Assembly: GCF_017051705.1 (NCBI RefSeq)
Contig: NZ_JAFIDJ010000002.1
Coordinates: 826,384-890,383 of the forward strand
Direction: 5' to 3'
From: Algoriphagus lutimaris
Lineage (GTDB): Bacteria; Bacteroidota; Bacteroidia; Cytophagales; Cyclobacteriaceae
DNA: 64,000 bases
Part shown: one piece after another, positions 30,457 through 49,649 of the stretch
Layout of the letters: every line of letters begins with the position of its first letter
Numbering within the stretch: position 1 is the first letter of the stretch
Notes under the pieces: generated by a model
Seen by the model: the letters and a program-made list of their open reading frames with translations, nothing else
Database searches by the model: none
Told to the model about the DNA's origin: nothing
Position numbers and translations under genes: made by a program

Positions 30457-30798
30457 AATGAAAACAGTTAGGTTAGTAAAATTCTAAATCTAAAACATGA
30501 TCAAAGTCAAATCTCACCCATTTGATGAAAATTCAGTCCTTTTAAAAGTATAGGCTTGTTAAGAATAGCCTAATATTGACAAAATGGTATTTCCTCCGTA
30601 AAAACATCCCATCCATTCTCCAACATCTTAACCTATAAGTATTTACTCTCTAAAATCAATTTTTAATTTACTGAAATCTTAGAAAAACTCTTCTAAAATC
30701 CATACATTTTACTAGTTCAGCCATATTTATATTTATCATATAGGATCAAATCCAATTATAAATAATAATCAACGTAAAATTTTGATGACTTAAAACTA
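30457..30798. other. AT-rich intergenic region between sulfatase and AraC-type regulator
   Basis: No gene or RNA recognised. It should contain the promoter of the downstream minus-strand sulfatase gene; no box could be assigned with confidence. Confidence 0.35.
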
Positions 30799-31962
30799 TT
30801 AGAAGACTGTATCTGGAATCTCTTTCAAATATTGGCTGGGTGTAATTCCTTTGACTTTTTTAAAGGAAGATATAAATGTAGTACGATTCGAAAATCCGCA
30901 TTTAGAGGCTATTCCATCTAAGGTCATTTTTTCATGGTACCCTTCAAAGATCAACTGTTCAAATTCCTCAATTCTAAACTGGTTGATCCACTGATTGAAA
31001 TTCATATGAAAACAGGCATTGATAGCGGGGGAAATCTTATAAACGGGAATATCTGATGCTACACTCAAATCATTGATGGAAAAACCCTTCTTTAAAAATA
31101 ATTTCTCCTCCTGAATCAAATGATTCAATTTTTGACAAAGCTCTTGGTTTTCCCGCTCCAACCTTTGCAGTTCCTTTACACTAGTTTCACTGGTTTTTTT
31201 AAAATCAATCCTTTCTTGGGATTCATTTTCCCAATAAAAACCATACAAGAGTGAAGGATGGAAGAATAAAAATATTCCTGATCCTATAAGAGTGATCGCT
31301 AAAGTAAGGGCTTGCATCCCCAGGGTATATGCTTCTACCAAATTGATAACCCTAAAAAATGGAGGTAAAATCGAAATGCTCATTGTCACCACCATAAACC
31401 AAAGGTAACGGTTAATATCCCGGTTGACCTTAGCCTCTTCTCTCCTTATTAAATTTCGGTTAATCCACAGCAATCGGATACTTAAGATCAAAAAAAGCAA
31501 TAAATAAATCTGCCGAAAGTAGAAATGAAAGCTATCAGGAAGAAAGCTGCTTTCGCTAAATAAGAAATGATCCTCTCCTAATTGTTGAGCCAGGATAATG
31601 CTGGATTTTTCCTCCCCCGAAAGTAAATAATAAGGCAAAAAATCAATCAAATTTAGGAGAGACGGTAAAAAAATAAGTAGGTCCGGGCTTTTAAATAAAG
31701 GTCCTCGATAAAGTAAATACCTGACAAAAAGATAAAATAGTGGAGCAACAAGGTATGCAGAAAGATTCCCTGTTCTTGAAATATGGGGTACATTAACCAT
31801 ATCTCCACTTTGATATAGAATAGAAACTAAGAGGCAATGACAAACGGTGAGTAAACAAAACCCTAACAAAATATTTCCATTTTCCCTCGATCGAGGGAAG
31901 AATATCAGGATTATAGATACCAATAACCCTATGATCATTCCAGGCCAAAAGAGAAATAACAT
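30799..31962 (-). CDS. Membrane-bound AraC-family transcriptional regulator
   Basis: A 387-residue protein with about seven N-terminal membrane helices (1-240) and a C-terminal AraC DNA-binding domain (about 285-385). The HTH region contains FSINDLSVASDIPVYKIS and GIASKCGFSNRTTFISSFKK, ending GITPSQYLKEIP. This layout is known in Bacteroidetes for sensors that detect envelope signals and act on DNA directly. It lies between two sulfatase genes, making them its likely targets, though no operator was identified. Confidence 0.88.
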   Translation of the reverse strand: MLFLFWPGMIIGLLVSIILIFFPRSRENGNILLGFCLLTVCHCLLVSILYQSGDMVNVPHISRTGNLSAYLVAPLFYLFVRYLLYRGPLFKSPDLLIFLPSLLNLIDFLPYYLLSGEEKSSIILAQQLGEDHFLFSESSFLPDSFHFYFRQIYLLLFLILSIRLLWINRNLIRREEAKVNRDINRYLWFMVVTMSISILPPFFRVINLVEAYTLGMQALTLAITLIGSGIFLFFHPSLLYGFYWENESQERIDFKKTSETSVKELQRLERENQELCQKLNHLIQEEKLFLKKGFSINDLSVASDIPVYKISPAINACFHMNFNQWINQFRIEEFEQLIFEGYHEKMTLDGIASKCGFSNRTTFISSFKKVKGITPSQYLKEIPDTVF

Positions 31963-32078
31963 ATACGGTAGCGAGGAGGTTAAGCTACTTAAATATAACC
32001 CTTTATCTTCTTGAGAATGAAGTGATAAATAATAATCACCTTATTTTTGTTTTGAGGAAAAAAATAAATTCCAACGGT

Positions 32079-32876
32079 CTATTGTGGAAAAAGGAAGATT
32101 AACACCGCTCTCCATCCCCAATCTGCTTTGCCTCCTTCGGGAGCTACCAGGTTTATCCGTGGACCTACTGCAAACTGTGTTTTTTGTTTTCCGAGTGAAG
32201 TCACAGCACTGAAAGTTGGGTTCAACCAAATCGTCGAAGATGAGGTTTTCCAGTTTTGTGTCCACTCCATATTGGCTCCAACTCCTGCCCCGGTTTTCCA
32301 ATTATACACCAAAAAAGGTTGAACAAACATTTGGCTGACATCAGGGCGGTCCTCATTTCCTGCTACAGACCAGAGTTGATTGATCAATCCACCAACCGTC
32401 CATCCATTGGCTTGTTTTAATGCCACAGCCGTTGGGCCCATTCCAAATTTTTTGGTGGTCAAATAATCATTGGTACCAATAGGCAAAAGCAGTGCAGGCC
32501 CAACTCCCCAAGTTACTTTGTCGGAGTTTTTTGGTGAAAAGAAAGCAGACATTACCGCATCTCCTAAACCGGATTGTTTTTCCCCCGGTGCAGAAATATT
32601 GTATTGCGTAATAATTGGTAGCACCACCCGAGTGATCATATTCCAATTTTTACTTACTGAAACTGGAATTACTGGCTGAATATTCAGTGTATTTCTTGTC
32701 CCTTGAAAAGAACTTATTCCATAATCAGTGTTATTCTGTAAAGGTACCGATATCAAGGAAGCTATAGGGTTTGCAAGTTTTTTTGCTAGTTCGGCAGCAT
32801 CATCTTGTGCATTAGCCGTGAGTGTGTATAAAAAAAATAGGCAAGTACATAGAGTAAAAACCTTCTTCACTGTCAT
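32079..32876 (-). CDS. Outer-membrane beta-barrel protein, paralogue of the protein at 23963-24766
   Basis: A 265-residue protein with signal peptide (LTANAQ). Blocks shared with the paralogue: AKKLANPIASLISVPLQNN, TLNIQPVIPVS, QSGLGDAVMSAFFSP, VTWGVGPALLLPIGT, VGGLINQLWSVAGNEDRPDV and the C-terminal WGWRAVLIFLFP. The final aromatic-rich strand supports an outer-membrane barrel. Placed between the AraC regulator and the second sulfatase, it could be the uptake or export pore for sulfated compounds or their products; this is a context guess. Confidence 0.75.
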   Translation of the reverse strand: MTVKKVFTLCTCLFFLYTLTANAQDDAAELAKKLANPIASLISVPLQNNTDYGISSFQGTRNTLNIQPVIPVSVSKNWNMITRVVLPIITQYNISAPGEKQSGLGDAVMSAFFSPKNSDKVTWGVGPALLLPIGTNDYLTTKKFGMGPTAVALKQANGWTVGGLINQLWSVAGNEDRPDVSQMFVQPFLVYNWKTGAGVGANMEWTQNWKTSSSTIWLNPTFSAVTSLGKQKTQFAVGPRINLVAPEGGKADWGWRAVLIFLFPQ

Positions 32877-33095
32877 GTTGGTTTAAACCAATAAAGATAG
32901 TTTAATCTTAGATAATTAAAATCTTTTACGCTTATAATCTAACAAACTTGGAAAGATTAGGAGGTTAATTCAGTTTCTGAAGAAGATTGAGGTATTCAAA
33001 ACAGTAATTGGAATATAACTTCAAACAGCTCGGCAAATTTCAGGGTTAACCGTGGTCTTACACGTACCTGGATAAAAAATGGTGCTCTCTATTCA

Positions 33096-33132
33096 TAAAA
33101 ATACCCCCAAAAAGAAATAACTTTTTGAGGGC
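33096..33132 (-). terminator. Rho-independent terminator of the second sulfatase gene
   Basis: Read on the minus strand: CCCTCAAAAAG, loop TTATTT, CTTTTTGGGGG, then TATTTTT. It lies 36 bases after the sulfatase stop codon. Confidence 0.85.
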
Positions 33133-33167
33133 ATATCAAATTCAAAATTTCTTTTACATGAAGATAT

Positions 33168-34751
33168 TTATTGCTTACTTTTTTTGATAAACTCTTCTAC
33201 CACATTAGACATATCAAAACTTTTACCTCCCTGAACTGGGGGATATTCAGCGAGGGATTGTAGATGTTCCTGCATAAGAACTCCCATGGGTTGAAGTAGC
33301 CATGAAACTTTTTGCATAAGATGTCCATACGAATCTTTATTATCATAAGACTCAAAGGGGTCCATTCTAATATTAAAAACTAAGGGAACCGTCCTAGGAA
33401 TCACATTTGCATAATAATCTTCTTTGGTTGAGAAATGGAATTTCCAGGGTCCCATCCTGACAGCAGTAAGTTTCGACTCATAATAATAGAAAATTGAATT
33501 TCTTGCTGAGTTATCTGTTTCACCTTTCCAATACGCTAAATTGTTAACGCCATCAATAACTTGCTTTTTTTCGCTCATAACTTTGTCTGCAATATTATCT
33601 ATCCCCGCAGCCGCAGCAAGTGTGGTGAACATATCCATATGACTTTGGATGCCATTAAGTTTTTGTCCCGGTTTGATTACTCCAGGCCATCTTAACATTG
33701 AAATTACACGCACTCCACCTTCATAAGTAGTCATTTTCTCACCACGGAAAGGAGTTGTTGCACCATGTGGCCAAGAAGCGTGCTCAGGACCATTATCAGT
33801 TGAATACCAGATAATTGTGTTTTCAGCCAAGCCTTGTTCTTCCAACCATTGAAGCACCATTCCTATATCATGATCATGTTGTAACATTCCTGAACCATGA
33901 ATGTCAGCTTCACTGGTATATTCCTCCGCAGCATATTTCCATTTTTCATCCAAACGAGTATATAAGTGCATCCTACTGGTATTTAACCAGACAAAGAATG
34001 GCTTATCTTCATCCTTGGCTTTTTTCATAAAATTTTCAGCCATTGGGATTACCTCTTCAGAATCAAAGTTTTTCATTCTTTCCTGAGTAAGCGGTCCCGT
34101 ATCTTCTATTCGCTGCATTCCCACTTTTCCAAATCTTGGATCCTCCGAGTTATCCATTTGATCAGTTGCCCAAGAATGAATGACACCTCTTGTACCAAAT
34201 CTCTTCTCATACGATTCTAAATCACCGGAAAAAGCTTTTCCAAATCGTTGATAATCTCGTTGCTCAGATTCTTCTTGGGTATTTAGGTGATACAAATTTC
34301 CATAAAACTCATCGAATCCGTGGGCAGTTGGAAGATGTTCATTTCGATCACCCAAGTGATTTTTACCAAAATGGCCAGTTGCATAACCTGCTTCTTTCAT
34401 ATAACTAGCAAGGCTAGGAGATGCAGCTTGTAAACCTAAGGCATCACCAGGCTGACCTACCGTAGTCATTCCTGATCTTATAGGATATTGACCTGTAATA
34501 AATGAAGCTCTTCCTGCTGTACAACTTGGTTGAGCATAGTGATCTGTAAATCGAATACCCTCCATTCCAATTCGATCAATATTGGGTGTGGTATATCCCA
34601 TTGTACCCATTCCATATGCACTTACATTTTGCCAACCTATATCGTCCCCCCAGATCACCAAAATATTCGGCTTATCTTGAGCCCACACCAGGCATGGCCC
34701 CAATAAGAAGAGGTTCAAAGTCCATAGAAAAATAGAATTTACTTTCTTCAT
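33168..34751 (-). CDS. Arylsulfatase, exported (second copy)
   Basis: A 527-residue type I sulfatase with a signal peptide ([10 protein letters not shown]). It has the DD metal pair in [11 protein letters not shown], the formylglycine motif C77-T-A-G-R81 ([13 protein letters not shown]), [14 protein letters not shown], and [20 protein letters not shown]. It is clearly paralogous to the sulfatase at 28900-30456 in every conserved block. It shares the locus with an outer-membrane barrel and a membrane AraC regulator. No formylglycine-generating enzyme gene is visible in the window. Confidence 0.93.
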
Positions 34752-37784: not shown

Positions 37785-37818
37785 TTATCCTAAAAAAGTG
37801 AGAAAAAACCTAGGATAA
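37785..37818. promoter_or_regulatory. Inverted repeat upstream of the BCCT gene (possible operator)
   Basis: TTATCCTA and TAGGATAA are perfect 8-base inverted repeats 18 bases apart, about 90 bases before the likely original start of the BCCT gene. It may be an operator or a weak hairpin. Confidence 0.3.
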
Positions 37819-37908
37819 GAAGCCTTTTTTCATACGTATTTGCCTCTTAAATAAGGATTTACAAAAACAGTGGATATACCGTCCCATATATTTCCCTAAG
37901 CCCGATAA

Positions 37909-38017
37909 ATGGGTTAAATTAGCCAAAAAAACACCCTTAGTTATCAAAGATTCTAAAAGTACCCAAGTTCCCTTTTTAAAGAGCATTCAACCCTGGGTTT
38001 TTTTTCCCTCCGCTGGC
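37909..38017 (+). other. 5' coding extension of the BCCT gene, out of reach of any canonical in-frame start
   Basis: The frame of the BCCT gene is open back to a TAG at 37811 and reads KLAKKTPLVIKDSKSTQVPF then LKSIQPWVFFPSAG just before the TTG at 38018. This looks like real BCCT N-terminal sequence including the first half of membrane helix 1. No ATG, GTG or TTG occurs in this frame between 37814 and 38018. An ATG at 37909 is one base out of frame (ATG GGT TAA); removal of one base would give MGKLAKKTPLVIKD joined to the rest. Confidence 0.65.
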
Positions 38018-39475
38018 TTGATTGTTTTATTTGTTACACTCACCTTGATCTTCCAAGAATCCGTAGGAGATTTATTTGAATCTGCACAATCCTACATTTC
38101 TACAAGGTTTGGTTGGCTTTACGTCCTAGCTGTAAATGTTATTCTGATTTTCTGTATTTACCTTGGGTTTAGCAGATATAAAACCATCCGTCTTGGAGGG
38201 AAGGACGCCAAACCCGAATTCAGTACCTGGGCATGGTTAAGTATGCTTTTCAATGCAGGTATAGGATTGGTTTTGATGTTTTATGCAGTAGCTGAACCGG
38301 TTAGTCACTTTTCAAATCCTCCTTATGGGGAAGCGGGAACTTTGACCGCTGCTAAAAATGCCCTCAACTTATCCTATTTGCATTGGGGCCTCCACGGCTG
38401 GGGTGTATATGCTTTAATGGGATTATCCATCGCTTTTTTCAAATACAATAAAGGACTTCCTCTTGGAGTGCGTTGGATTTTATATCCATTATTAGGGGAT
38501 CGGCTGAAAGGTCCAATTGGTCATTTCATTGATACCATGGCCGTAGTTGCTACCATGTTTGGTCTGGCCACTACCCTAGGATTAGGAATTCAACATATCA
38601 ATTCTGGTATGGAATACCTATTCAATATCCCTATCAGTGCCAATGTTCAAGTAATCCTGATAGGAATCATCACTATTTGTGCCACCGCTTCAGTGGTTTC
38701 AGGTTTACATAATGGAATTCAAGTCCTTAGTAAAATAGCATCTATTATGGCGATTACCCTAATGGCTTTTATGATCATCGTAGGACCCACCTTATTTATC
38801 CTTGGCTCGACTGTTCAGAGTACCGGCTCTTATATTCAAAGCCTTATCGGTACTGCGACTTGGATGGAAGTTTATCGGGGAACGCATTGGATGGATAGCT
38901 GGACCTTTTTTTATTGGGCTTGGTGGTTCGCCTGGGCTCCATTCGTGGGACTATTTATTGCAAGGATTTCAAGAGGTAGAACGATTCGCGAATTCATGAT
39001 GGGAGTATTACTTGGTCCTACAGCAGCTAGTATCATATGGATTTCCATCTTTGGAAATACTGCTTTTTATGTGGAATTATTCGGGCCAGGAGGAATAAGT
39101 GAAGCAGTTCAGGAAAATATCAACACAGGTCTATATTCACTACTTGAATTATACCCTCTTCCTTACCTAAGTATCTTTTTTGTGGTACTTGCCGGAGTTA
39201 TTTTCTTTGTTACTTCTTCCGATAGTGGATCATTGGTAATCGACTTTATCACCAGTGGTGGAAGAGATGACACCCCTGTCAAACTACGAATTTTCTGGGC
39301 ATTAATCGAAGGGGCAGTAGCTTCAGTATTAGTGTTGGGAGGAGGATTGATTGCCCTTCAAACTGGTTCTCTAGTTACTGGATTACCCGTATGTATATTG
39401 ATGCTAGTAGTTTGCTATTCAATCTTTAAAGCACTCAAAAAATATAGAGTAGAACATAAAGAAAGCCACGAATAG
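38018..39475 (+). CDS. BCCT family transporter (choline/betaine/carnitine type), 5' end uncertain
   Basis: 485 residues from the first usable in-frame start (TTG). BCCT markers: GGKDAKPEFSTWAWLSMLFN, AGIGLVLMFYAVAEPVSHF, the Trp-rich stretch FFYWAWWFAWAPFVGLFIAR (helix 8 substrate-box region) and a long TSSDSGSLVIDF. About twelve membrane helices. BCCT carriers import choline, betaine or carnitine with Na+ or H+. The start is doubtful because coding sequence clearly continues upstream (see 37909-38017). It converges with a BetA-like dehydrogenase, which supports choline as substrate. Confidence 0.88.
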   Translation: MIVLFVTLTLIFQESVGDLFESAQSYISTRFGWLYVLAVNVILIFCIYLGFSRYKTIRLGGKDAKPEFSTWAWLSMLFNAGIGLVLMFYAVAEPVSHFSNPPYGEAGTLTAAKNALNLSYLHWGLHGWGVYALMGLSIAFFKYNKGLPLGVRWILYPLLGDRLKGPIGHFIDTMAVVATMFGLATTLGLGIQHINSGMEYLFNIPISANVQVILIGIITICATASVVSGLHNGIQVLSKIASIMAITLMAFMIIVGPTLFILGSTVQSTGSYIQSLIGTATWMEVYRGTHWMDSWTFFYWAWWFAWAPFVGLFIARISRGRTIREFMMGVLLGPTAASIIWISIFGNTAFYVELFGPGGISEAVQENINTGLYSLLELYPLPYLSIFFVVLAGVIFFVTSSDSGSLVIDFITSGGRDDTPVKLRIFWALIEGAVASVLVLGGGLIALQTGSLVTGLPVCILMLVVCYSIFKALKKYRVEHKESHE

Positions 39476-39493
39476 GAATTATTCGTGGCTTTT
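39462..39493. terminator. Bidirectional terminator between BCCT transporter and choline dehydrogenase genes
   Basis: AAAGCCACGAAT and ATTCGTGGCTTT form a perfect 12-bp stem; the BCCT stop codon lies within it. A T run follows on the plus strand, an A-rich stretch precedes it. Confidence 0.88.
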
Positions 39494-39521
39494 ATAGAAA
39501 GGGCTGTTGACCGAAGTTTTA

Positions 39522-41189
39522 CTATTTGGTGACAGCCTCTTTTTTTGAATCAGGCATTTCTATTTTATAATAAGGAACATTTTCAGCTGGCAGAGGAGCA
39601 TTTCCCAAAATAATGTCAGCAGCTTTTTCAGCCACCATCATCACAGGAGAATAAATATTTCCATTGGTAACATAAGGGAATACAGAAGCATCCACTATTC
39701 TGAGGTTTTCCACTCCATGTACTTTCATGGTTTTAGGGTCGGTTACATCCATTGGGCCCACACCCATTCTACAAGTCGAACATGGATGATAGGCACTTTC
39801 ACCTTCTTTGGCTACGAAGTCCAAAATCTCTTCATCCGTCTGGACATCCTTACCAGGGGAAAGTTCCTCCCCTCTCAATTCACCCATGGCATTTGTCTCA
39901 ATAATTTTTCGCGACAAGCGAATGGCTTCCACCCACTCTTTACGCTCTTTTTCTGTGGACAGGTAATTGAAAAGAATACTCGGGTAGTCTTTTGGATCTG
40001 CTGATTTAATTTTCACTCTTCCTCTCACATCCGTGTTCATTGGACCCACGTGAAGCTGAAATCCATGTCCCTCCTTTGGGGCAGAACCATCGTAGCGGAT
40101 TGCCAAAGGCAAAAAGTGGAATTGTAAATTTGGATATTCTACAGTGTCATTGCTTCGGATAAATCCTCCTGCCTCAAAATGATTGGAAGCTCCTAGTCCT
40201 TTTCTCCTGAATAACCAGTCGAACCCGATTTTTGGTGCTCTCCAGGGGCTCAAAGCTGGAAATAAACTAACCGGCTTTTTACAGGCCCACTGAACATATA
40301 CTTCCAAATGATCCTGAAGATCTTCTCCTACTCCTGGCAAATCATGCACCACTGGGATTCCCAAACTTTTCAAATGTGGGGCATTTCCTACTCCTGAAAG
40401 CTGAAGTAATTGAGGCGTATTGATCGCCCCTCCACAACAAATGATTTCCTTGGCATATACTTGCTTGACGTTTCCTCCTTTTTGATATTCTACCCCAACC
40501 GCTTTTTTCCCTTCAAAAAGAATCCTCATCACCATGGCTGAGGTTTCTACATGAAGATTCTTTCGGTGTTTTATTGGATGAATATAGGCACGGGCAGCAT
40601 TCAATCTTCTAGACTTGTATATGGTCTGATCAAACTTCCCGAAACCTTCTTGTTGGTATCCATTCACATCATCTGTCAAAGGATATCCTGCTTCCTTAAC
40701 TGAATTAAAAAAGGCATCAAACAACGGATTATTACACTTGGGAGTAGTCAACTTCAAGTTTCCTTTGTCCCCTCGGTAATCGTCCCCTCCAATCAATCGC
40801 TCCTCCACTCTTTTAAAATAGGGAAGACAATGAGCATAATCCCAATCTTCCAAGCCTTTATCCTGAGACCATTTATTGAAATCCATGGCATTACCACGGA
40901 TCCAAATCATCCCATTGATACAGGAAGATCCCCCCAAAACTTTCCCGCGTGGCTGGGCAATTCTGCGGTTATTCATATAAGGCTCCGGGTCTGAAGAATA
41001 ACCCCAATTGTAATGGGTCCCCGTTAAAAGGTAGGTGAGTGCTGCAGGCATATGAATTCTAAAATCCAGGGTATAATCTGGTTTTCCAGCTTCTAGTACC
41101 AACACTTCTTTTGAGGGGTCTTGACTTAGTCTGTTGGTAAGGACAGCACCAGCAGAACCGCCTCCAACAATTATATAATCGTACTTCAT
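39522..41189 (-). CDS. betA: GMC-family choline dehydrogenase-like flavoprotein
   Basis: About 555 residues, the BetA length. The FAD-binding motif is YDYIIVGGGSAGAVLTNRL; the family-typical MIWIRGNAMDFNKWSQDKGL, the second GMC signature (GGAINTPQLLQLSGVG) and the active-site stretch ESAYHPCSTCRMG are present, with the C-terminal DASVFPYVTNGNIYSPVMM. BetA oxidises choline to betaine aldehyde and often on to betaine. No betB gene is next to it. Start chosen at the second ATG (MKYDYIIV); an ATG three codons upstream also works. A different primary alcohol remains possible. Confidence 0.85.
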   Translation of the reverse strand: MKYDYIIVGGGSAGAVLTNRLSQDPSKEVLVLEAGKPDYTLDFRIHMPAALTYLLTGTHYNWGYSSDPEPYMNNRRIAQPRGKVLGGSSCINGMIWIRGNAMDFNKWSQDKGLEDWDYAHCLPYFKRVEERLIGGDDYRGDKGNLKLTTPKCNNPLFDAFFNSVKEAGYPLTDDVNGYQQEGFGKFDQTIYKSRRLNAARAYIHPIKHRKNLHVETSAMVMRILFEGKKAVGVEYQKGGNVKQVYAKEIICCGGAINTPQLLQLSGVGNAPHLKSLGIPVVHDLPGVGEDLQDHLEVYVQWACKKPVSLFPALSPWRAPKIGFDWLFRRKGLGASNHFEAGGFIRSNDTVEYPNLQFHFLPLAIRYDGSAPKEGHGFQLHVGPMNTDVRGRVKIKSADPKDYPSILFNYLSTEKERKEWVEAIRLSRKIIETNAMGELRGEELSPGKDVQTDEEILDFVAKEGESAYHPCSTCRMGVGPMDVTDPKTMKVHGVENLRIVDASVFPYVTNGNIYSPVMMVAEKAADIILGNAPLPAENVPYYKIEMPDSKKEAVTK

Positions 41190-41254
41190 AGTAATCAATA
41201 TTTTGAGGTTATTAAACCTACTAGGGTCCTTGCATCTCCTAGTTCAACTCTAAT

Positions 41255-42496
41255 TTACTCCTCTGTAATCCAATAATTTAAATAGCCTGAAGGGGTTTCC
41301 AAGACTATTTTATAGTATTCTGAATCTGAATTTTCCGGGGAAAATGTGAATTTTTCATCAGAGAGATTTACCTCTCCTATAGACTGGTAGTCATCAGTTC
41401 CACCCATTTTAAAATGATTGGTAGTACTAATCCAAACTTTTCCTGTCCCTGTTTTAGAAAGCGAATTCCATGTCAAATGAATTTGTTCTCCTTTTTCAAC
41501 CGCTTTGAAATTACTCACATCCACCTGCCCAATAAATGGAACACCATCCAACTCCATTGCATGTTCCTTAGGGATTTCAAGATCCAAGAAGTTGACGATG
41601 GATGGGAAAATATCTACAGTAGCGCCTACTTCATTAAAATGAGCATTGGTCTCTGGATAATTAGTAGCAATCCAAACACTTCTCTCACGCTCACTTTGAC
41701 CACCATGACCATATCCACTATCCTCTCTACCGTGGTCTGTGGTAATGACAATTAGCCAATCTTCATTATACTTAGATTCTCGTTTTTTGATTGCATCCCA
41801 GACTCTTCCTACTTGGATATCTGCCTTTTGGATGGCGTCAACAAACTGTGGGCTATTGCCGAACTTATGAGACATATCATCAGTAAACTCCAAGTACATC
41901 CAGGTTAGATCTGGTGATTTTTCTAATATTTCCTCTGCCGCTTTTTTTGAAACCTCTTCATCGATCAAATGAATATAGGTTCGTTCTTCATCATGAGGAT
42001 AACTGACGGTATCTATTTCCAAACCATCAAAATGATAATCAACGGTCAAATTACCAGTTTGGGGAAGACCATCTCCCACCAATTTGGTTCTGTTGTCTAA
42101 CCAAGTAGAATAAATAGCATTCTTTTTTTCAGGGTTGTTATTCTTGAGTACCCTAAATAACGTGGGGTAATGATAATTCGGATCTTTAATAGAATTCCCC
42201 CAAACATTGTGTTTGTTTGCCCAAACTCCGGTAAGCACCGTATTGTAACCTACAGCTGAAATGGTGGGTGTTTGGCTGTAACCATCTTTTTCACCACCCA
42301 TCATTGCTTTGGTTATTCCTCCTTCAGCTATGATTTTATCCAAATTTGGGGTAGGAACCGTATCCAGAACATCATCAGGAATGCCGTCTAAGATTACAAA
42401 TATGGCTTTTTTAGCAGTTGGTTGATTTTTCTCTTCGGTAGTACAAGATTGTAATGCCACCAATACGAGGCATACAGCTACAAATAGGTTTTTCAT
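41255..42496 (-). CDS. Exported nucleotide pyrophosphatase/phosphodiesterase-type lipoprotein (alkaline phosphatase superfamily)
   Basis: A 413-residue lipoprotein (LVALQSC). The ENPP-like catalytic core has the first metal Asp in FVILDGIPDD, the nucleophile region QTPTISAVGYNTVLTGVW, AND metal ligands TDDMSHKFG, TTDHGRE and GHGGQS. Residues after about 330 form an extra beta domain (VSNFKAVEKGEQIHLTWNSL), fibronectin-like. Members cleave phosphodiesters such as glycerophosphocholine or nucleotides. It directly follows susD on the same strand after a hairpin, so it belongs to the SusCD unit. Substrate is inferred only from context. Confidence 0.85.
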   Translation of the reverse strand: MKNLFVAVCLVLVALQSCTTEEKNQPTAKKAIFVILDGIPDDVLDTVPTPNLDKIIAEGGITKAMMGGEKDGYSQTPTISAVGYNTVLTGVWANKHNVWGNSIKDPNYHYPTLFRVLKNNNPEKKNAIYSTWLDNRTKLVGDGLPQTGNLTVDYHFDGLEIDTVSYPHDEERTYIHLIDEEVSKKAAEEILEKSPDLTWMYLEFTDDMSHKFGNSPQFVDAIQKADIQVGRVWDAIKKRESKYNEDWLIVITTDHGREDSGYGHGGQSERERSVWIATNYPETNAHFNEVGATVDIFPSIVNFLDLEIPKEHAMELDGVPFIGQVDVSNFKAVEKGEQIHLTWNSLSKTGTGKVWISTTNHFKMGGTDDYQSIGEVNLSDEKFTFSPENSDSEYYKIVLETPSGYLNYWITEE

Positions 42497-42518
42497 TGTA
42501 GTTATTATAAATGGAGGA

Positions 42519-42540
42519 AGCCCGGCACATTTACCGGGCT
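42519..42540 (-). other. Intercistronic hairpin between susD and the phosphodiesterase gene
   Basis: AGCCCGG and CCGGGCT (7 bp, GC-rich) around an 8-base loop, without a T run on the minus strand. Likely stabilises or partially terminates the susCD message rather than fully ending it. Confidence 0.65.
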
Positions 42541-42560
42541 ATTTATCTTACTTGATTAGT

Positions 42561-44351
42561 TTATTCCCATCCAAAGATCTGAACTAGATTTGGATTTAAA
42601 GTTACTTGTTGAATTGGGATAGGTCGGTAATAATATTTAGGCTCCACGAAGTTTCTTTCCTTCGTTTCAGTAACCATGTTACCTCCATTCTCACCATCTG
42701 TTAAGAATACATCTACATTATCGTCAATTGTTCCAGCCTTGTAGTAAATCAAAGCTTCACCCAGACTGTTTTTTTCTTTATCATCTCCAACAGGGATAGT
42801 ACTGTCCTTATCCACTAAAATAATGTCTTCTATTCCATCTCCCGTCATATCGTATTTTCCAAGACCTGGAAAATACATCCCCTCTGGAATATTTTCCAGA
42901 AGTTTACCTGCATTCCATCTCATCAAATCATCATACCGATATCCTTCCAAGGCCAACTCTACTCTTCTTTCTCTTCTGATTTCAAGTAGTACACCTTGGT
43001 TAGCACCTGAAACTGAAGGATATTTAGAAGTCAAGAATTGATCAGGATTTCCATTGGCTGCTGCCATTTCCAAATTTGGCATACCTACTCTTTGTCTCAA
43101 AACATTAATGGTCATGTCTAAATCTCCTTGGCTTAATTCATTCAATTCAGCTTTTGCCTCTGCATGAATCAATAAGGTTTCCGCAAATCGATACACAGGG
43201 AAATCATCACTGGATACTTCCACATTATCAATGCTGTTAACATAGCCTTTCAATTGATGATATCCAGTAAAATTTTTATTTAGAGATTGAATGTATGGAG
43301 TAGCATCAGGCTGTCTTATCCAGCCTGGATAAACGACAGTTTGACTTAACCTTGGGTCTCTATTCTGAAACTCCTCTACAAAAACTTTTTCATTGTAACC
43401 TTCCAAATCGGTAAACCTCGATCCGTCTTTCATCAAATAACTTAATACTAGATCCTTTGAAGGAGATTGCTCATAATCACCAAAGATGACGGTATTGAAA
43501 TTAGCTCCTCGGTCTTTATTGGAATCATAAATATTAGCTAAAATTACTTCAGGGTGGCCTACCAAATCCTGTGCACCAAATAAAGATCCATAATCACTTT
43601 CTGGATTTCCAGAGTTAAAAATGGAAAACAAACCTGAATTCATGATTTCTAGAGAAACGTTCTTAGCTTTTTCCAAAAATGCCGCTGCACTTCCTTCTAA
43701 TCCCAATTCAGTATGGTATTTTCTATAAGTTCCCTCATATAAAGCTACTCTCGCAGTAAATGCTTTGACTGCCCAAACATCAGGAGTACCTGTAGGAACT
43801 GATTCTCTTACATTTGCCATAGCAAAGTCCAAGTCTTCCATGACCTTGGTCATGACCATTTCCCGGGAATCTCTGGGCTTATATAAATCTTCATCACCTG
43901 GACTCAACGTACTTTCATACCATGGTACATCAGAATATCTTTTTACCATGTTGAAATAGAACAACGCACGATAATACCTCGCCAAACCTACATAATGGGC
44001 AATCCCTTCCTCGGTACCCGTGGCTTTGCTGTAGTTATCAAGGAAATAATTGATGTTTCTAAGTGTTCCCCAGTTCCAGCCACTGGTAATTGTCTGTGAA
44101 CTTGGAGAACCTGTCATGATATTTTTTATTTCAATGGCGCCGGTAGTGGCACTATTGTCACTGCTTTGGTCAGCTAAATAACTTCCAGGTCCAGCCATGG
44201 TAAGTAACCCATTTACATACAATTCTAAATCTTCCTCTGTTTTGAAAAACTCTTCAGGAGCTACTGAAGTCTGAGGATATTTATCTAGAAAATCATCGTT
44301 ACATGAAGCTAAAAGGAAAGCTGCACTTAAATAAAGGAAATATTTTTTCAT
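42561..44351 (-). CDS. SusD/RagB-family outer-membrane binding lipoprotein
   Basis: A 596-residue SusD-like lipoprotein (LSAAFLLASC). It has DDFLDKYPQTSVAPEEFF at the N-terminus, the RYYRALFYFNMVKRYSDVPW helix of the TPR core, and the C-terminal RREGRVELALEGYRYDDLMRW-like stretch (here RRERRVELALEGYRYDDL) plus PIPIQQVTLNPNL. SusD proteins sit on the SusC barrel and capture ligand at the surface. It lies 18 bases after susC. The ligand is not predictable; the neighbours suggest a phosphodiester or phospholipid head group rather than a glycan. Confidence 0.95.
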   Translation of the reverse strand: MKKYFLYLSAAFLLASCNDDFLDKYPQTSVAPEEFFKTEEDLELYVNGLLTMAGPGSYLADQSSDNSATTGAIEIKNIMTGSPSSQTITSGWNWGTLRNINYFLDNYSKATGTEEGIAHYVGLARYYRALFYFNMVKRYSDVPWYESTLSPGDEDLYKPRDSREMVMTKVMEDLDFAMANVRESVPTGTPDVWAVKAFTARVALYEGTYRKYHTELGLEGSAAAFLEKAKNVSLEIMNSGLFSIFNSGNPESDYGSLFGAQDLVGHPEVILANIYDSNKDRGANFNTVIFGDYEQSPSKDLVLSYLMKDGSRFTDLEGYNEKVFVEEFQNRDPRLSQTVVYPGWIRQPDATPYIQSLNKNFTGYHQLKGYVNSIDNVEVSSDDFPVYRFAETLLIHAEAKAELNELSQGDLDMTINVLRQRVGMPNLEMAAANGNPDQFLTSKYPSVSGANQGVLLEIRRERRVELALEGYRYDDLMRWNAGKLLENIPEGMYFPGLGKYDMTGDGIEDIILVDKDSTIPVGDDKEKNSLGEALIYYKAGTIDDNVDVFLTDGENGGNMVTETKERNFVEPKYYYRPIPIQQVTLNPNLVQIFGWE

Positions 44352-44369
44352 GATTTTTTCTATTCTTAA

Positions 44370-47300
44370 TTACAGATCTATGTTGATTCCGAATGCAAAT
44401 TTTCTCTGGAATGGATATGAATTTGCATCTCCACTCGACGCATTAACCGATTCCGGATCCACATATTTCTTGATGGCAGAGATTTCATATAAGTTCTCTC
44501 CCGTTACATAAAATCTTACTTTGGTTACGTTTAGCCTTTCTGTCAACACCTGAGGAAGGCTATAACCAAGAGTGATATTTTTAAGTCTTAAATAAGCACC
44601 ACTTAGCAAATAGTTGGTTTGAGGAATATCCAACCCTGCTCCATAATTAGCATCTGCCAACCAAGATTGAAGTACCGGATAGCTTGAATCCAAATTTTGC
44701 TCTGCTAAGCCCGCTTCAATGTAAGATTGAGAATGCTGAGCCAATAAATCAGTTCCATCTGCCTCTGCTCTGTAGAAATCAAGGTTCCAAGGATAAACAT
44801 TCCCGTAAGGCTGTTGGTAAGGTCCCCAGAAGAGGTAACGGCTTGGGTAATAATCTCTTTTAGCTACGCCTTGTAAGAAAAGGGATAAATCAAATCCACT
44901 CCAGCCTACGTTAATGTTAGCTCCATATCGATATCTAGCAGTAGTGTTACCAATTAATCTCAAGTCCTTTGGATCATCTTGGGATTGACCTCTTTCGATT
45001 TTACCATCATTATCTTGGTCTACATACTTTGGCCAGCCTGGAACAATGTCCAAAGCTCCCCATGGTACGATACTGGATTGATCCAATTGAGCAATTTCAT
45101 CTTCATTGGCAAATAACCCATCACTTTCAAGCCCCCACAACTCACCCACTTCCTGGCCTACTCTCCAATTGGAAAATAAGTTTTGCTCATTTTGGAATTT
45201 GGTAATGGTAGATCTAGAATCTGAAAGGATCATTTTCACACCAAAAGTTACTGGGTTGGATGTGCTTCCTACCTGATCTCTATATCCAATGGAAAAGTCA
45301 AATCCTTTTGTTCTTAAATCAGCTGCATTTTGCTTTGGAGGTGCGGTTCCTAATACTCCTGGAAGTTCTACTGGGTCCGTAAGCATTCCTTTGGTATCCC
45401 GGATGAAATAATCAAAAGTACCACTGATTCTATCTCCTAAAAATCCGAAATCCAAACCTACGTTTGTAGAGATTACTTCTTCCCAAGTATAGAAATTAGG
45501 ATCTACCGCTAAAGATGGAGCAGAGGTAATAATGGTTTTCTTACTACCGTCTATTAGGTAACTAGACAAGTTGGTTGGCAAAGCTTGGATATATCCAAAG
45601 TTCGCTACATTCTGATTTCCTAAACTACCATAAGAGGCTCTCACTTTGAACGTAGATACTACATTGGTCAAAGGTTGGAAGAAACCTTCATCCATCATCA
45701 ACCAGGAAGCAGAAACGGATGGGAAGAAGCCCCAACGGTTGTCGCTTGGGAATCTGGATGACCCATCATATCGTCCATTCACCTCAAGGATGTATTTATC
45801 ATTGAAGGTGTAGTTAATTCTACCAAACAAACTTCTTACAGAATAGGCACTATAGGATGGCGTAATGAATGATTCTCCAGTAGTCAAACCTATGTATGGA
45901 AGGGAAGAGGAAATCAACACTCTTCTTTCTGCTTGAATCGTGGAGTAGTCATAATTTTCTTGGTTGTAACCTGCTAAGATTCCGAAGTTATGCTTACCAA
46001 GAGTTTTGGAATATCTACCATAAAAATCCAAGATGGTGGTATTCAAAGATCCGTTTCTTTCGATTACAGATCCATCTCCACCTTCTGTTCGGATGTCTTC
46101 AGGACCAAAGCCAATATTATATTTCTTTCTATTCCAATGGTATTTCCATTGCTCTCTTTTGAAACTGGCCGTTCCTTTGAAAATCAAATCCCCGTTTAAC
46201 ATGGTAGCGGTAGCTCCCAAAATATTTTGGAAACCAAACATGTTTTCTTGATTCTCTCCTCCATCTACTAACCTGGCAGCTAATCTTCCTGTCGCTGTGT
46301 TTGCCCAGGAACCATCAGGGTTGACCGCCACATCAATTGGTCTTAAGTTGTAAACACTTGTAATATTGTTGGTCGGATCTTCTCTTTTAGTCTGGTAGAT
46401 GTTCAGATTATTGTCCACATCTAGCCATTTCAACGGCTTAGCAGTTACTCGAGCTCTAAGGGAATACCTTTTCCAATAGTCATCAGCTAATTTATTTAGT
46501 CCGTTTTCATTGGTATAATCACCTGAGACGTAATAGCCCATTGGCATTTTTCCACCACTATTTCCACTAATCGCTAAACTATGGTTGGTAGAAAAGCTGG
46601 ATTTATTGAAGAAGTAATCATACCAGTCATAATTACCCATGTAAGCCCAACGATTTGGGTTATTGGGATCTAATCTAGTATCCTCGATAGAAGGATCTTC
46701 TGATCTTTCTTTTGCCCATTGGTAATGCGCATCAGAATAATTGACATAATCCCAAGGTGTATTATTGGTAGATGTTTCCAACACTCTGGAATGGATATAC
46801 GGATCTGTTACAGGTTCTGGAAGTACAGAAGGTCGACCCCATGCAAAATAGTTATTGTAGGTTATTCGCTGATTACCGGATGTTCCTTTTTTGGTGGTAA
46901 TCAAAATCACTCCAAATGCGGCTCTGGCACCATAAATTGCAGCTGAAGCAGCATCTCTAAGTACGGAGTAAGATTCAATATCAGAAGGATTCAACCTCAA
47001 TAAATCGCTGTTGTTTCCTGCAATTCCATCAATTATAATCAAAGGGTCTCCTCCATTGATAGAAGTAAAACCTCTAATATTGATATTAGGAACGGATCCA
47101 GGTCTACCTCCTTGATAGGTAATGTTCAAACCAGGACTCATCCCTTGAAGTCCTTGCATAACATTCGCGATAGGTCTATCGGCAATTTCTTCTCCAGCCA
47201 ATTGATCCACGGCACCCGTTACATTTACCTTTTTCTGAGTTCCGTATCCCACTACAACTACCTGCTCCAGCAACGTATCTTCTTCTTCGAAAGTAAGATC

Positions 47301-47609
47301 AATGATACTGTTTCCTCTCACAGGCTGCTCCATGGTCTTATATCCAATGAAAGAAAATACCAATACAGCATTTTCATTGGAAACCTCAATCGTATAAGAT
47401 CCATCCAAATCAGTGATCGTACCATTTTGAGTACCTTTTTCCAATACGGATACTCCAGGCATTCCTAATCCTGATTTATCAGTGATCGTTCCTTTGATTT
47501 GAGATTGTGCGAACGAACTAATCGCAAAAGTCACAACCAAAAAAATCATAAGGCCTGTCCTCCTTATCAAGGAGTTTCGGTCTGGGATTCTTTGTAAAAC
47601 TTGTTCCAT
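44370..47609 (-). CDS. SusC/RagA-family TonB-dependent outer-membrane transporter
   Basis: A 1079-residue TonB-dependent transporter. After the signal peptide comes a carboxypeptidase-regulatory-like domain (IKGTITDKSGLGMPGVSVLE, about 36-115), then the TonB box/plug with VVVGYGTQKKVNVTGAVDQ and the SusC signature NVMQGLQGMSPGLNI...PNINIRGFTSINGGDPLIII, and a 22-strand barrel ending FPFQRKFAFGINIDL. It imports the ligand bound by SusD using TonB energy. It is the first gene of a susC-susD-phosphodiesterase transcript; a shared palindromic motif lies upstream at 47692. Confidence 0.96.
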   Translation of the reverse strand: MEQVLQRIPDRNSLIRRTGLMIFLVVTFAISSFAQSQIKGTITDKSGLGMPGVSVLEKGTQNGTITDLDGSYTIEVSNENAVLVFSFIGYKTMEQPVRGNSIIDLTFEEEDTLLEQVVVVGYGTQKKVNVTGAVDQLAGEEIADRPIANVMQGLQGMSPGLNITYQGGRPGSVPNINIRGFTSINGGDPLIIIDGIAGNNSDLLRLNPSDIESYSVLRDAASAAIYGARAAFGVILITTKKGTSGNQRITYNNYFAWGRPSVLPEPVTDPYIHSRVLETSTNNTPWDYVNYSDAHYQWAKERSEDPSIEDTRLDPNNPNRWAYMGNYDWYDYFFNKSSFSTNHSLAISGNSGGKMPMGYYVSGDYTNENGLNKLADDYWKRYSLRARVTAKPLKWLDVDNNLNIYQTKREDPTNNITSVYNLRPIDVAVNPDGSWANTATGRLAARLVDGGENQENMFGFQNILGATATMLNGDLIFKGTASFKREQWKYHWNRKKYNIGFGPEDIRTEGGDGSVIERNGSLNTTILDFYGRYSKTLGKHNFGILAGYNQENYDYSTIQAERRVLISSSLPYIGLTTGESFITPSYSAYSVRSLFGRINYTFNDKYILEVNGRYDGSSRFPSDNRWGFFPSVSASWLMMDEGFFQPLTNVVSTFKVRASYGSLGNQNVANFGYIQALPTNLSSYLIDGSKKTIITSAPSLAVDPNFYTWEEVISTNVGLDFGFLGDRISGTFDYFIRDTKGMLTDPVELPGVLGTAPPKQNAADLRTKGFDFSIGYRDQVGSTSNPVTFGVKMILSDSRSTITKFQNEQNLFSNWRVGQEVGELWGLESDGLFANEDEIAQLDQSSIVPWGALDIVPGWPKYVDQDNDGKIERGQSQDDPKDLRLIGNTTARYRYGANINVGWSGFDLSLFLQGVAKRDYYPSRYLFWGPYQQPYGNVYPWNLDFYRAEADGTDLLAQHSQSYIEAGLAEQNLDSSYPVLQSWLADANYGAGLDIPQTNYLLSGAYLRLKNITLGYSLPQVLTERLNVTKVRFYVTGENLYEISAIKKYVDPESVNASSGDANSYPFQRKFAFGINIDL

Positions 47610-47691
47610 ATAGTATTGAGTTGAATTGTTTCTTTTTCAAATTTTCTATTCCAAAAACGGTTAAAAAATTGCCAATTTAACCAAGAATTTA

Positions 47692-47722
47692 TTGAACATT
47701 CATTCAATATTAAATATTGTAA
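47692..47722 (-). promoter_or_regulatory. Shared palindromic operator-like motif, copy 1 (upstream of susC)
   Basis: 31 bases beginning TTGAACATTCATTCAA and continuing into CAATATTAAATATTG (perfect 7-bp inverted repeat around one A). 26 of 31 bases match the copy at 48968-48998. It lies 82 bases upstream of the susC start. Confidence 0.75.
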
Positions 47723-47913
47723 TTTAAAATTCAAAGGAATTAAATTTCCATTTTAAATAGTTAATAATAATTTAATACTTAGTGTTAGTAATTAATCCTG
47801 AAGAAATGAATCAATAATAAAATGCTAAAAATTGAAGTTTTTCCACAAAAAATTGACCCATTGATTATAGCAAGCTGCTTATTTGCAGTTTATGAATCAT
47901 TGAATGGAATTAT

Positions 47914-47950
47914 ATAAAAAAACATAAGCCACCCTTAAATGATGGCTTAT
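47914..47950 (-). terminator. Rho-independent terminator of the metallophosphoesterase gene
   Basis: Minus strand: ATAAGCCA...TGGCTTAT stem followed by GTTTTTTT. It separates this transcript from susC, so the two copies of the palindromic motif serve separate promoters. Confidence 0.87.
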
Positions 47951-47983
47951 TAGATAATTGTCAATTCAGAAAAATATGGTTTT

Positions 47984-48880
47984 TTATCGCAGAGGGAAAT
48001 ATTCATTTTCCACCTGACCATCTTCATATAATTTTAAAATTGCATATCCAGGAGGAGTCTCCAAGTAATACTGTTTACCAGCAGATTCCTGATCTCCATC
48101 TCCCCACCAAAATCCACTAAGGGATCCATTACAGAAATAATGTACATCATTGTACCAAGTTCTGTCCAACAAATGTTGATGACCACTCAAACACACCCGA
48201 ACCTTATCTTTATGTTGGTAGAATAATTTTTTCAATTCTTTATGGTCCTGATGCTGACCACCTACCAGCGCATTGGTAATGGATGTAATTGGAAAATGAG
48301 ACATGACTAAGGTTGGAGTATTTTCGGCAAGTTGAATTAGGTCATTTTCTAACCAGTTCATCTGCTCTTCCCCAAGGCTAATTCCCTCATGATTTCCATC
48401 CAAAATGACAAAATGCCAGCCATTTTTATCAAAGCTGTAATAAGGTGATGGCATCCCCAAACGTTCCACTACATAAGGCTTCCCATACATCGGCTCTTGA
48501 TTTTTATCAGCAACATCCCACCAAGGATCGTGGTTACCAATACAGCTATACACTTCACTTTCTTTGATTTCTTCCCTGAATTGATCCCAAACTTCCCATT
48601 GTGCAATGACTCGATCCTTTGTCACTCCTTCATACGAAGCATCATGGATGCTATCCCCTCCATTTAGATAAAAATCGGGTTTATGTTTTTTAACGATTTT
48701 CAACCAGTCTATGGCTCTAGAAGGAACATCTTCTTCGGGCCGAATATGAACGTCAGTAATATGGGCAACTGTTAACACCGGTTTTTTAGCAGAATTAATG
48801 TCTTTAGCAGATGAAACGGTAGGCAATCCTATTCCTGCAGAAATAAATCCAGCATTTGTTAAAAACTTCCTTCTATTCAT
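47984..48880 (-). CDS. Tat-exported calcineurin-like metallophosphoesterase
   Basis: A 298-residue protein with a twin-arginine-like signal (MNRRKFLTNAGFISAGIGLP). All metallophosphoesterase motifs are visible: HITDVHI (DxH), LNGGDSIHD (GD), CIGNHDPWW (GNHD), MSHFPI and SGHQHLLD (GHxH). It would hydrolyse a phosphomonoester or diester in the periplasm with a two-metal centre. It is divergent from the TetR gene and shares a 31-base motif with the susC promoter, so it is probably co-regulated with the SusCD unit. Phosphocholine or glycerophosphodiesters are plausible substrates. Confidence 0.88.
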   Translation of the reverse strand: MNRRKFLTNAGFISAGIGLPTVSSAKDINSAKKPVLTVAHITDVHIRPEEDVPSRAIDWLKIVKKHKPDFYLNGGDSIHDASYEGVTKDRVIAQWEVWDQFREEIKESEVYSCIGNHDPWWDVADKNQEPMYGKPYVVERLGMPSPYYSFDKNGWHFVILDGNHEGISLGEEQMNWLENDLIQLAENTPTLVMSHFPITSITNALVGGQHQDHKELKKLFYQHKDKVRVCLSGHQHLLDRTWYNDVHYFCNGSLSGFWWGDGDQESAGKQYYLETPPGYAILKLYEDGQVENEYFPLR

Positions 48881-48967
48881 ATTCTCTTTAAATCAATTTT
48901 TCCTGACTAAAAGCCATGAAAATCAGCATTTTTTGAATTATTTTTATTTTTAGTCACCCGATTTCTG

Positions 48968-48998
48968 TTGAATGACCATTCAATATTATATATTGTAA
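48968..48998. promoter_or_regulatory. Shared palindromic operator-like motif, copy 2 (between metallophosphoesterase and TetR genes)
   Basis: TTGAATG-AC-CATTCAA is a perfect 7-bp inverted repeat, followed by CAATATTATATATTG. It lies 87 bases upstream of the metallophosphoesterase start and 66 bases upstream of the tetR start, fitting autoregulation of a TetR repressor. Confidence 0.75.
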
Positions 48999-49064
48999 AA
49001 GTCAAAACAAAAGAATTTACTCTAATTAAAGAGTGCATTAACTTTATTTTAATAATTAATTAAC

Positions 49065-49649
49065 ATGGCCACAAAGGTTTCTGCTGATAGGAAAAGAGAA
49101 ATAATTGAAGGGTTTTATCAGCTTTCCAAAGAAAATGGAATTGAAAACACATCCATTGCCAAAATCGGAAAACACCTGGGGATGCCCCCTAGTCTGATCA
49201 TGCATTATTTCCCCACCAGGGACATTTTAATTTCTAATCTCATCTCATTTATTCTAAAGAGATTATTGCAAATTTATACACCTATTATCAAGGAATTGAG
49301 GGTTCAAAACTATACCGACCCTCATACATTTGTAGAGCGAATGTTTTCGAGAGACTGGAACCTATTGATTGATGATGGAGTATTTTATAGTTGCTTTAGC
49401 TTGATTTTCAGGAATGATACTATTAAGCGGGAATACCGAAACCTTCATCTCAAACTCAGAGAAAATTTGAAGGAGATTCTTGATCAAGATGAAAAATTGA
49501 ATAAAAAAGATACTGCATTACTTTCTGAGCAAATCTTTGTAGTAGTAGAAGGTGCTTACTATTATTTATCCATGATTGATGATGAGGAGCTTTACGAGCA
49601 AAAAGTCGAGATTTTTAAAAATCAGGTTTACGATTTACTAAGAGGCTAA
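49065..49649 (+). CDS. TetR family transcriptional regulator
   Basis: A 194-residue TetR-type regulator. The N-terminal HTH (about 10-55) reads KREIIEGFYQLSKENGIENT SIAKIGKHLGMPPSLIMHYF with the expected recognition helix; the C-terminal ligand domain (about 60-194) has no clear family. By position it is divergent from a metallophosphoesterase and next to a SusCD, BCCT and choline dehydrogenase block; BetI, the choline-responsive regulator of betaine genes, is also TetR-type. It probably binds the palindrome at 48968. Ligand not shown by sequence. Confidence 0.9.
   Translation: MATKVSADRKREIIEGFYQLSKENGIENTSIAKIGKHLGMPPSLIMHYFPTRDILISNLISFILKRLLQIYTPIIKELRVQNYTDPHTFVERMFSRDWNLLIDDGVFYSCFSLIFRNDTIKREYRNLHLKLRENLKEILDQDEKLNKKDTALLSEQIFVVVEGAYYYLSMIDDEELYEQKVEIFKNQVYDLLRG

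Follow-up and report, generated by a model that had tools for sequence, protein, structure and literature searches.

A candidate PusCD-like organophosphate locus that may supply choline for betaine synthesis in Algoriphagus lutimaris

The locus analysed here lies within a 64,000-nucleotide stretch (the window) of the 4.7 Mb genome of Algoriphagus lutimaris, where it occupies 37.8-49.6 kb. Its first gene encodes a BCCT transporter, a quaternary/tertiary amine carrier (37814..39475, + strand; PF02028 608 bits), in an open frame with a non-canonical start codon. It is followed on the minus strand by the choline dehydrogenase BetA (39522..41198; TIGR01810 819 bits; in-frame ATG at 41189), an exported PF01663 phosphoesterase of the alkaline-phosphatase superfamily and probable lipoprotein, here called PDE (41255..42496; PF01663 72.6 bits, cut-off 23; Ser at the nucleophile position), a SusD-like surface lipoprotein (42561..44351; PF07980 187 bits, LPAM_1 21.6 bits), a SusC-like TonB-dependent transporter (44370..47609; TIGR04056 816 bits) and a Tat-type calcineurin-like metallophosphoesterase, MPE (47984..48880; PF00149 58 bits; N-terminal RR motif). 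A TetR-family regulator of the TetR_C_37 type closes the locus on the plus strand (49065..49649; PF18665 139.5 bits; PF00440 26.2 bits, cut-off 24). All of these genes had been named in an earlier note, in the right positions and order, and the family matches are clear; the locus start given there, 37909, falls outside the BCCT reading frame. BCCT and BetA are convergent and TetR is divergent from MPE, while SusC, SusD, PDE and BetA are co-directional with operon-like gaps of 18, 64 and 56 bp. The distance from MPE to SusC is 374 bp.

SusCD systems have mostly been described for glycans. A family profile search detected no carbohydrate-active enzymes among the genes of the locus, which sets it apart from a glycan PUL. 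Two sulfatase genes terminate about 3 kb ahead of BCCT. At 28900-34751, two aryl-sulfatase-like genes enclose a regulator of the AraC type and a small protein predicted to belong to the outer membrane, both recognised by eye, and these sulfatase/AraC genes probably form a separate locus.

BetA exceeds the TIGR01810 equivalog cut-off (819 bits versus 732.1), and its best solved relative is 9lq0 (657 bits). The BCCT protein passes its family cut-off (TIGR00842, 490.7 bits versus 407.55); it falls below the BetT choline-transporter cut-off (NF007399, 512.9 bits versus 695) and below that of the betaine-BCCT model as well. Its score against the betaine carrier model is higher than that against BetT, and its best solved relatives are the trimethylamine transporter 8zw8 (483 bits) and the choline transport protein 9vbn (424 bits). 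In the window interval 37814-38018, no in-frame ATG or GTG was present upstream of the first membrane segment, and the start options are a TTG inside that segment or a non-standard ATT or ATC. The BCCT genes of loci L023-L026 share this peculiarity: stops close the frame upstream, and no ATG or GTG follows them. The same genome encodes a betaine-aldehyde dehydrogenase, BetB, outside the window and about 29 kb beyond TetR (G000:C8:905341-906783; NF009725 760 bits, cut-off 593). This BetB gene directly adjoins a gene for an MscS-type mechanosensitive channel (PF00924; L184 15410-17790), a spot common to several relatives, and this adjacency suggests a link to osmotic stress.

BCCT and BetA might in principle be an independent osmoprotectant pair for betaine or choline uptake that converged here by chance. 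The position of BCCT on the other strand without an operator, its preference for the betaine carrier model over BetT and the trimethylamine carried by its best solved relative agree with such an origin; nevertheless, BetA is co-directional with PDE and only 56 bp behind it, and full-score BetA occurs only beside this core among the 58 genomes surveyed below. We regard an independent pair as quite improbable.

BetI had been cited in the earlier note as a TetR regulator of betaine genes; the regulator of this locus is not of that type, as it lies far below both BetI family cut-offs (TIGR03384, 32.7 bits versus 201.3; NF001978, 34.8 bits versus 118). Two candidate TetR operators are present in the locus: one upstream of SusC (47690..47719, - strand), in the block CAATATTTAATATTGAATGAATGTTCAATA, which is near-invariant in 8/8 aligned loci, and one between MPE and TetR (48968..48995, + strand), TTGAATGACCATTCAATATTATATATTG, whose palindrome is kept in 8/8. 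Alignment of these eight core loci demonstrated that the palindrome TTGAAYGNNYRTTCAA is common to the upstream regions of SusC and MPE/TetR within otherwise diverged sequence; a second palindrome, CAATATNTAATATTG, overlaps it and is more strictly conserved before SusC. Nine whole genomes were then scanned with an 18-base pattern, with double counts arising from self-complementarity merged. The core operator TTGAAYGNNYRTTCAATA was found at just two sites, before SusC and between MPE and TetR, in eight of the nine; the ninth (G019) gave a single match, before SusC, which persists there with no TetR homologue detected in the flanks. The reversed-pattern control produced 0 matches in 9/9 genomes, and in the whole-genome scan the operator pattern was absent before BCCT and BetB. 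Of 12 aligned loci outside the genus, 11 show a related site in the interval from TetR to SusC, several of them with one arm mismatched, and the twelfth (L120) yielded its site in a palindrome scan; that scan, for which the arms had to be exact, recovered such a site in just 4 of the 16 loci covered and in none of L110, L123 and L143. The conserved sites and their spacing point to the TetR protein as the likely binder of the paired sites.

The two phosphoesterases belong to unrelated superfamilies, and their division of labour can be read in two ways. The predicted PDE fold matched alkaline phosphatases, iPGM and NPPs about equally, the model being equally close to SPAP/PafA and to NPPs, so that the match is tied between mono- and diesterases; by Foldseek alone, sulfatases rank first. 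The earlier label of an ENPP-type phosphodiesterase therefore stands as far as a PF01663 phosphoesterase is concerned and is too specific beyond that. In the family alignment (33 of 41 sequences found), the nucleophile position is occupied by Ser and position +4 by Tyr in 33/33 sequences, as in ENPP6, which the available text of PMC4757880 describes as a choline-specific glycerophosphodiesterase with a Ser nucleophile and Tyr at +4. Both proteins are of the PF01663 type and share a Tyr and a Glu equally spaced before the metal Asp-His. Part of the ENPP6 choline pocket is missing from PDE, however: Ala stands in place of Tyr72 (+1) in all 33 aligned sequences, the window protein has no Cys apart from its signal and lipobox and hence none for the ENPP6 loop disulfide, and overall similarity is low (5ege, E 2.6e-6).

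For MPE, the best model matches are Rv0805 and GpdQ, and the sequence profile retrieves purple acid phosphatases first. The likeness to the Enterobacter glycerophosphodiesterase GpdQ is one of metallophosphoesterase fold alone, with a TM-score of 0.66 over the MPE model and only 18 % identity. In one genome (G019; L030 15976-17309 / L055 3191-4009), a PF13350 tyrosine-phosphatase-family protein occupies the position of MPE before SusC, a replacement that fits MPE as a phosphomonoesterase. Loci L099-L103 and L106-L108 carry MPE after the SusD of a different SusCD (37-47 % identity to that of the window), mostly without an adjacent PDE; MPE thus looks like a member of a wider SusCD-associated phosphoesterase family. 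Within the same pathway, the roles could be swapped, with a GpdQ-like MPE cutting the glycerophosphodiester and the PF01663 protein acting as a PhoK/PafA-like phosphomonoesterase. This arrangement, which overlaps our best explanation, would suit the MPE model and the equal closeness of PDE to SPAP/PafA and NPPs, and it is opposed by the purple acid phosphatase profile match and by the tyrosine-phosphatase replacement; we consider it a real possibility, on balance not the favoured one.

To assess how often the gene set recurs, we conducted two surveys. The PDE survey covered 58 genomes including the window's own; any PDE match was obtained in 38, and 29 loci were taken with their flanks. TetR-MPE-SusC-SusD-PDE in the window's order was found in 7 of these 29. 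One further locus (L030) has SusC-SusD-PDE with the tyrosine-phosphatase-family protein in the place of MPE and no TetR found, and in the remaining 21, PDE is 46-53 % identical and MPE is absent from the flanks, which in some cases belong to short contigs. Two of these 21, from two other genomes of the genus, carry TetR-SusC-SusD-PDE with a distant SusCD, a TetR of 42 % identity and no MPE (L037 9312-16177, L041 9408-16383). The MPE survey used the best 80 of 129 confirmed loci, with flanks that did not exceed 10 kb and fell short of this on some contigs; the closest relatives of MPE among these 80 are from Algoriphagus. Fifteen of the 80 have the five genes in the window's order, more widely spaced in L093 and L096; all fifteen come from Algoriphagus or Echinicola, and five genomes are common to the 15/80 and 7/29 sets. 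Related genomes, which the earlier note had proposed to check for the gene set, hold a five-gene order that recurs more often than by chance.

The choline genes are distributed differently from this core. BetA and BCCT lie beside it in the window, in 4 of the 29 PDE loci (4 of the 7 in the window's order, arranged as in the window) and in 4 of the best 80 MPE loci; of the 15 ordered cores in the MPE survey, 4 have BetA and BCCT, one has an alternative choline set and 10 have neither. Among the other 65 MPE loci, TetR, SusC, SusD and MPE occur together within the flanks in 30, all five genes in other orders in 16, and the set without a TetR match in 8. No BetA, BCCT or ChoX (the choline-oxidase-like enzyme described below) was found near these 65 in flanks of at most 10 kb, and matches to BetB or the CHT symporter were only remote (28 % in L125; 25 % in L142). 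Pedobacter, Mucilaginibacter, Dyadobacter and others have core versions with no real BetA, BCCT, BetB, ChoX or CHT in the flanks. The choline model had been made to depend on BetA and BCCT accompanying homologous loci, and outside a subset of Algoriphagus they are missing; since most homologous loci lack both, a core that is a dedicated choline locus everywhere is ruled out. TetR-MPE-SusC-SusD-PDE is a recurring core of Algoriphagus and Echinicola that other Bacteroidota have in rearranged or partial form, and the choline genes are an add-on to it in Algoriphagus.

A. yeomjeoni (L089; G017, L052) has a second, unrelated choline module on this core, in the form of three genes that separate TetR from the genes coming after it in other loci. 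They encode a betaine-aldehyde dehydrogenase (NF009725 767 bits, cut-off 593; TIGR01804 664.8 bits, just below 668.6), a GMC enzyme, ChoX, that is nearest to choline oxidase (495 bits to 2jbv versus 188 to choline dehydrogenase 9lq0), and a CHT1-type sodium symporter (700 bits to 9rws and 409 to CHT1; next family 65). The 9rws structure is sfCHT, which, according to the available text of PMC13220886, was shown to transport choline, and A. chordae and A. aquimarinus are among the CHT homologues aligned there. The A. yeomjeoni locus thus includes an sfCHT/CHT1 homologue, whereas the window locus has none and carries BCCT instead. G028 carries this trio about 23 kb away from the core, flanked by mutS and a gene for an MscS-like channel. 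BetA carriers have BetB without ChoX and CHT, at the distance given above in the window's genome and about 235 kb off in G026. ChoX occurs in 2/58 genomes and full-score BetA in 5/58 (the window's own included), the latter each time directly behind this PDE. ChoX and full-score BetA never occur together and BetB accompanies either, which gives BetA-BCCT and ChoX-CHT the appearance of interchangeable modules for a single BetB. Because two unrelated choline modules stand beside one core, choline is the likeliest head group in Algoriphagus.

The distribution of BetB bears on the same question. The 58 include 36 genomes of the genus, with MPE in 9 and BetB over cut-off in 8: BetB is present in 8/9 MPE-positive and 0/27 MPE-negative genomes (Fisher p = 3e-7, or 7e-5 when confined to the 21 with a completeness of 95 % or more; neither value allows for shared descent, to which much of the co-occurrence could be due). 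In G001, a contig end interrupts the core locus (L191), and in G014 (A. terrigena) the core is present and BetB was not found. An extended BetB search covered 34 of 36 chosen genomes. BetB was found in 3 of nine further Algoriphagus/Echinicola core carriers (G014 again among them), giving 11/17 distinct carriers with BetB and 6/17 without; it is also present in Echinicola shivajiensis, whose MPE accompanies another SusCD (L099). An order-wide sample of 241 genomes contained MPE in 3 and BetB in 2. Outside Algoriphagus and Echinicola, most MPE carriers lack BetB, which was found in only 2/24. This last figure, together with the core versions of Pedobacter, Mucilaginibacter, Dyadobacter and others that have no flanking choline genes, favours a core devoted to general organophosphate scavenging for phosphate, with another head group or broad specificity, beside which BetA and BCCT settled without sharing its substrate. 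There is precedent in PUSI, where, in the available text of PMC8115612, PusCD and two diesterases of the periplasm are jointly controlled by phosphate. However, two unrelated choline modules adjoin the core in different species, BetB tracks MPE within the genus, and BetA lies only 56 bp behind PDE, and we judge general scavenging to be unlikely as the account of this locus.

We therefore prefer, with a probability of roughly 0.58, to read the locus as a PusCD-like organophosphate system coupled to choline metabolism, releasing choline for betaine synthesis. TetR, to judge from the conserved sites and spacing, would bind the paired TTGAAYGNNYRTTCAA sites and control itself, MPE and the SusC-SusD-PDE-BetA operon. 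The cargo taken through the outer membrane by SusCD would be a choline-bearing phosphoester, for example glycerophosphocholine (GPC), a lysophospholipid or a polymer decorated with phosphocholine, from which PDE and MPE, still outside the cytoplasm, would release choline and phosphate in successive steps. BCCT would import the amine, its specificity being putative; BetA and BetB, identified by family cut-offs, would oxidise choline to glycine betaine, perhaps for osmoprotection. The weightiest point for the choline reading is that two unrelated choline modules have joined the core, and the weightiest against it is the presence of the core without choline genes elsewhere. It also counts against it that GPC, as a small substrate, is not obviously in need of SusCD. 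Of the choline-phosphoester locus first proposed, import and oxidation as one unit in this genome are supported by the two modules and by BetB tracking MPE, and the extension to homologous loci is not, most of them lacking BetA and BCCT. A bolder version, which we put forward tentatively and with some doubt, is a TetR-switched SusCD importer of the outer membrane, dedicated to bulky phosphocholine-bearing molecules (lysophospholipids or phosphocholine-decorated polymers), in which head-group release, choline uptake and betaine synthesis form one unit and the choline module has been attached twice as unrelated gene sets.

PusCD are a described SusCD minority linked to organophosphates, each with a putative substrate, and here the head group can be named from genetics, through unrelated choline-processing modules beside one core. 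This provides a concrete substrate class that is testable in culturable type strains, links phosphoester scavenging with betaine synthesis, offers the two-site TetR operator as a handle for finding the inducer, and would hint at what the related gene sets in Pedobacter and Mucilaginibacter do.

A literature search, with most subscription papers outside its reach, found no report joining glycerophosphocholine, SusD and choline in Bacteroidetes. The bet operon (betT-betIBA) shares BetA, a BCCT carrier and a TetR-family regulator with the window locus, which differs in having BetB elsewhere, a regulator that is not BetI, and SusCD and two phosphoesterases in addition. A SusCD locus for a lipid head group had been called unusual; this is right in that PusCD are a described minority, and organophosphate SusCD are already known as PusCD in the available text of PMC8115612. 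The PUSI system of Flavobacterium reported there comprises PusCD1 and two periplasmic diesterases under phosphate control, and the word choline does not appear in the main text of that paper as available. The window locus has the SusCD pair with co-localised phosphomono/diesterases by which PusCD are defined, and it resembles them further in its exported phosphoesterases, including a PF00149 protein, and in the lack of adjacent glycoside hydrolases. According to that text, phosphate depletion induces PUSI, which includes an enzyme of the PI-PLC type, whereas the window locus has a PF01663 enzyme, a divergent TetR with its candidate operator, and choline genes.
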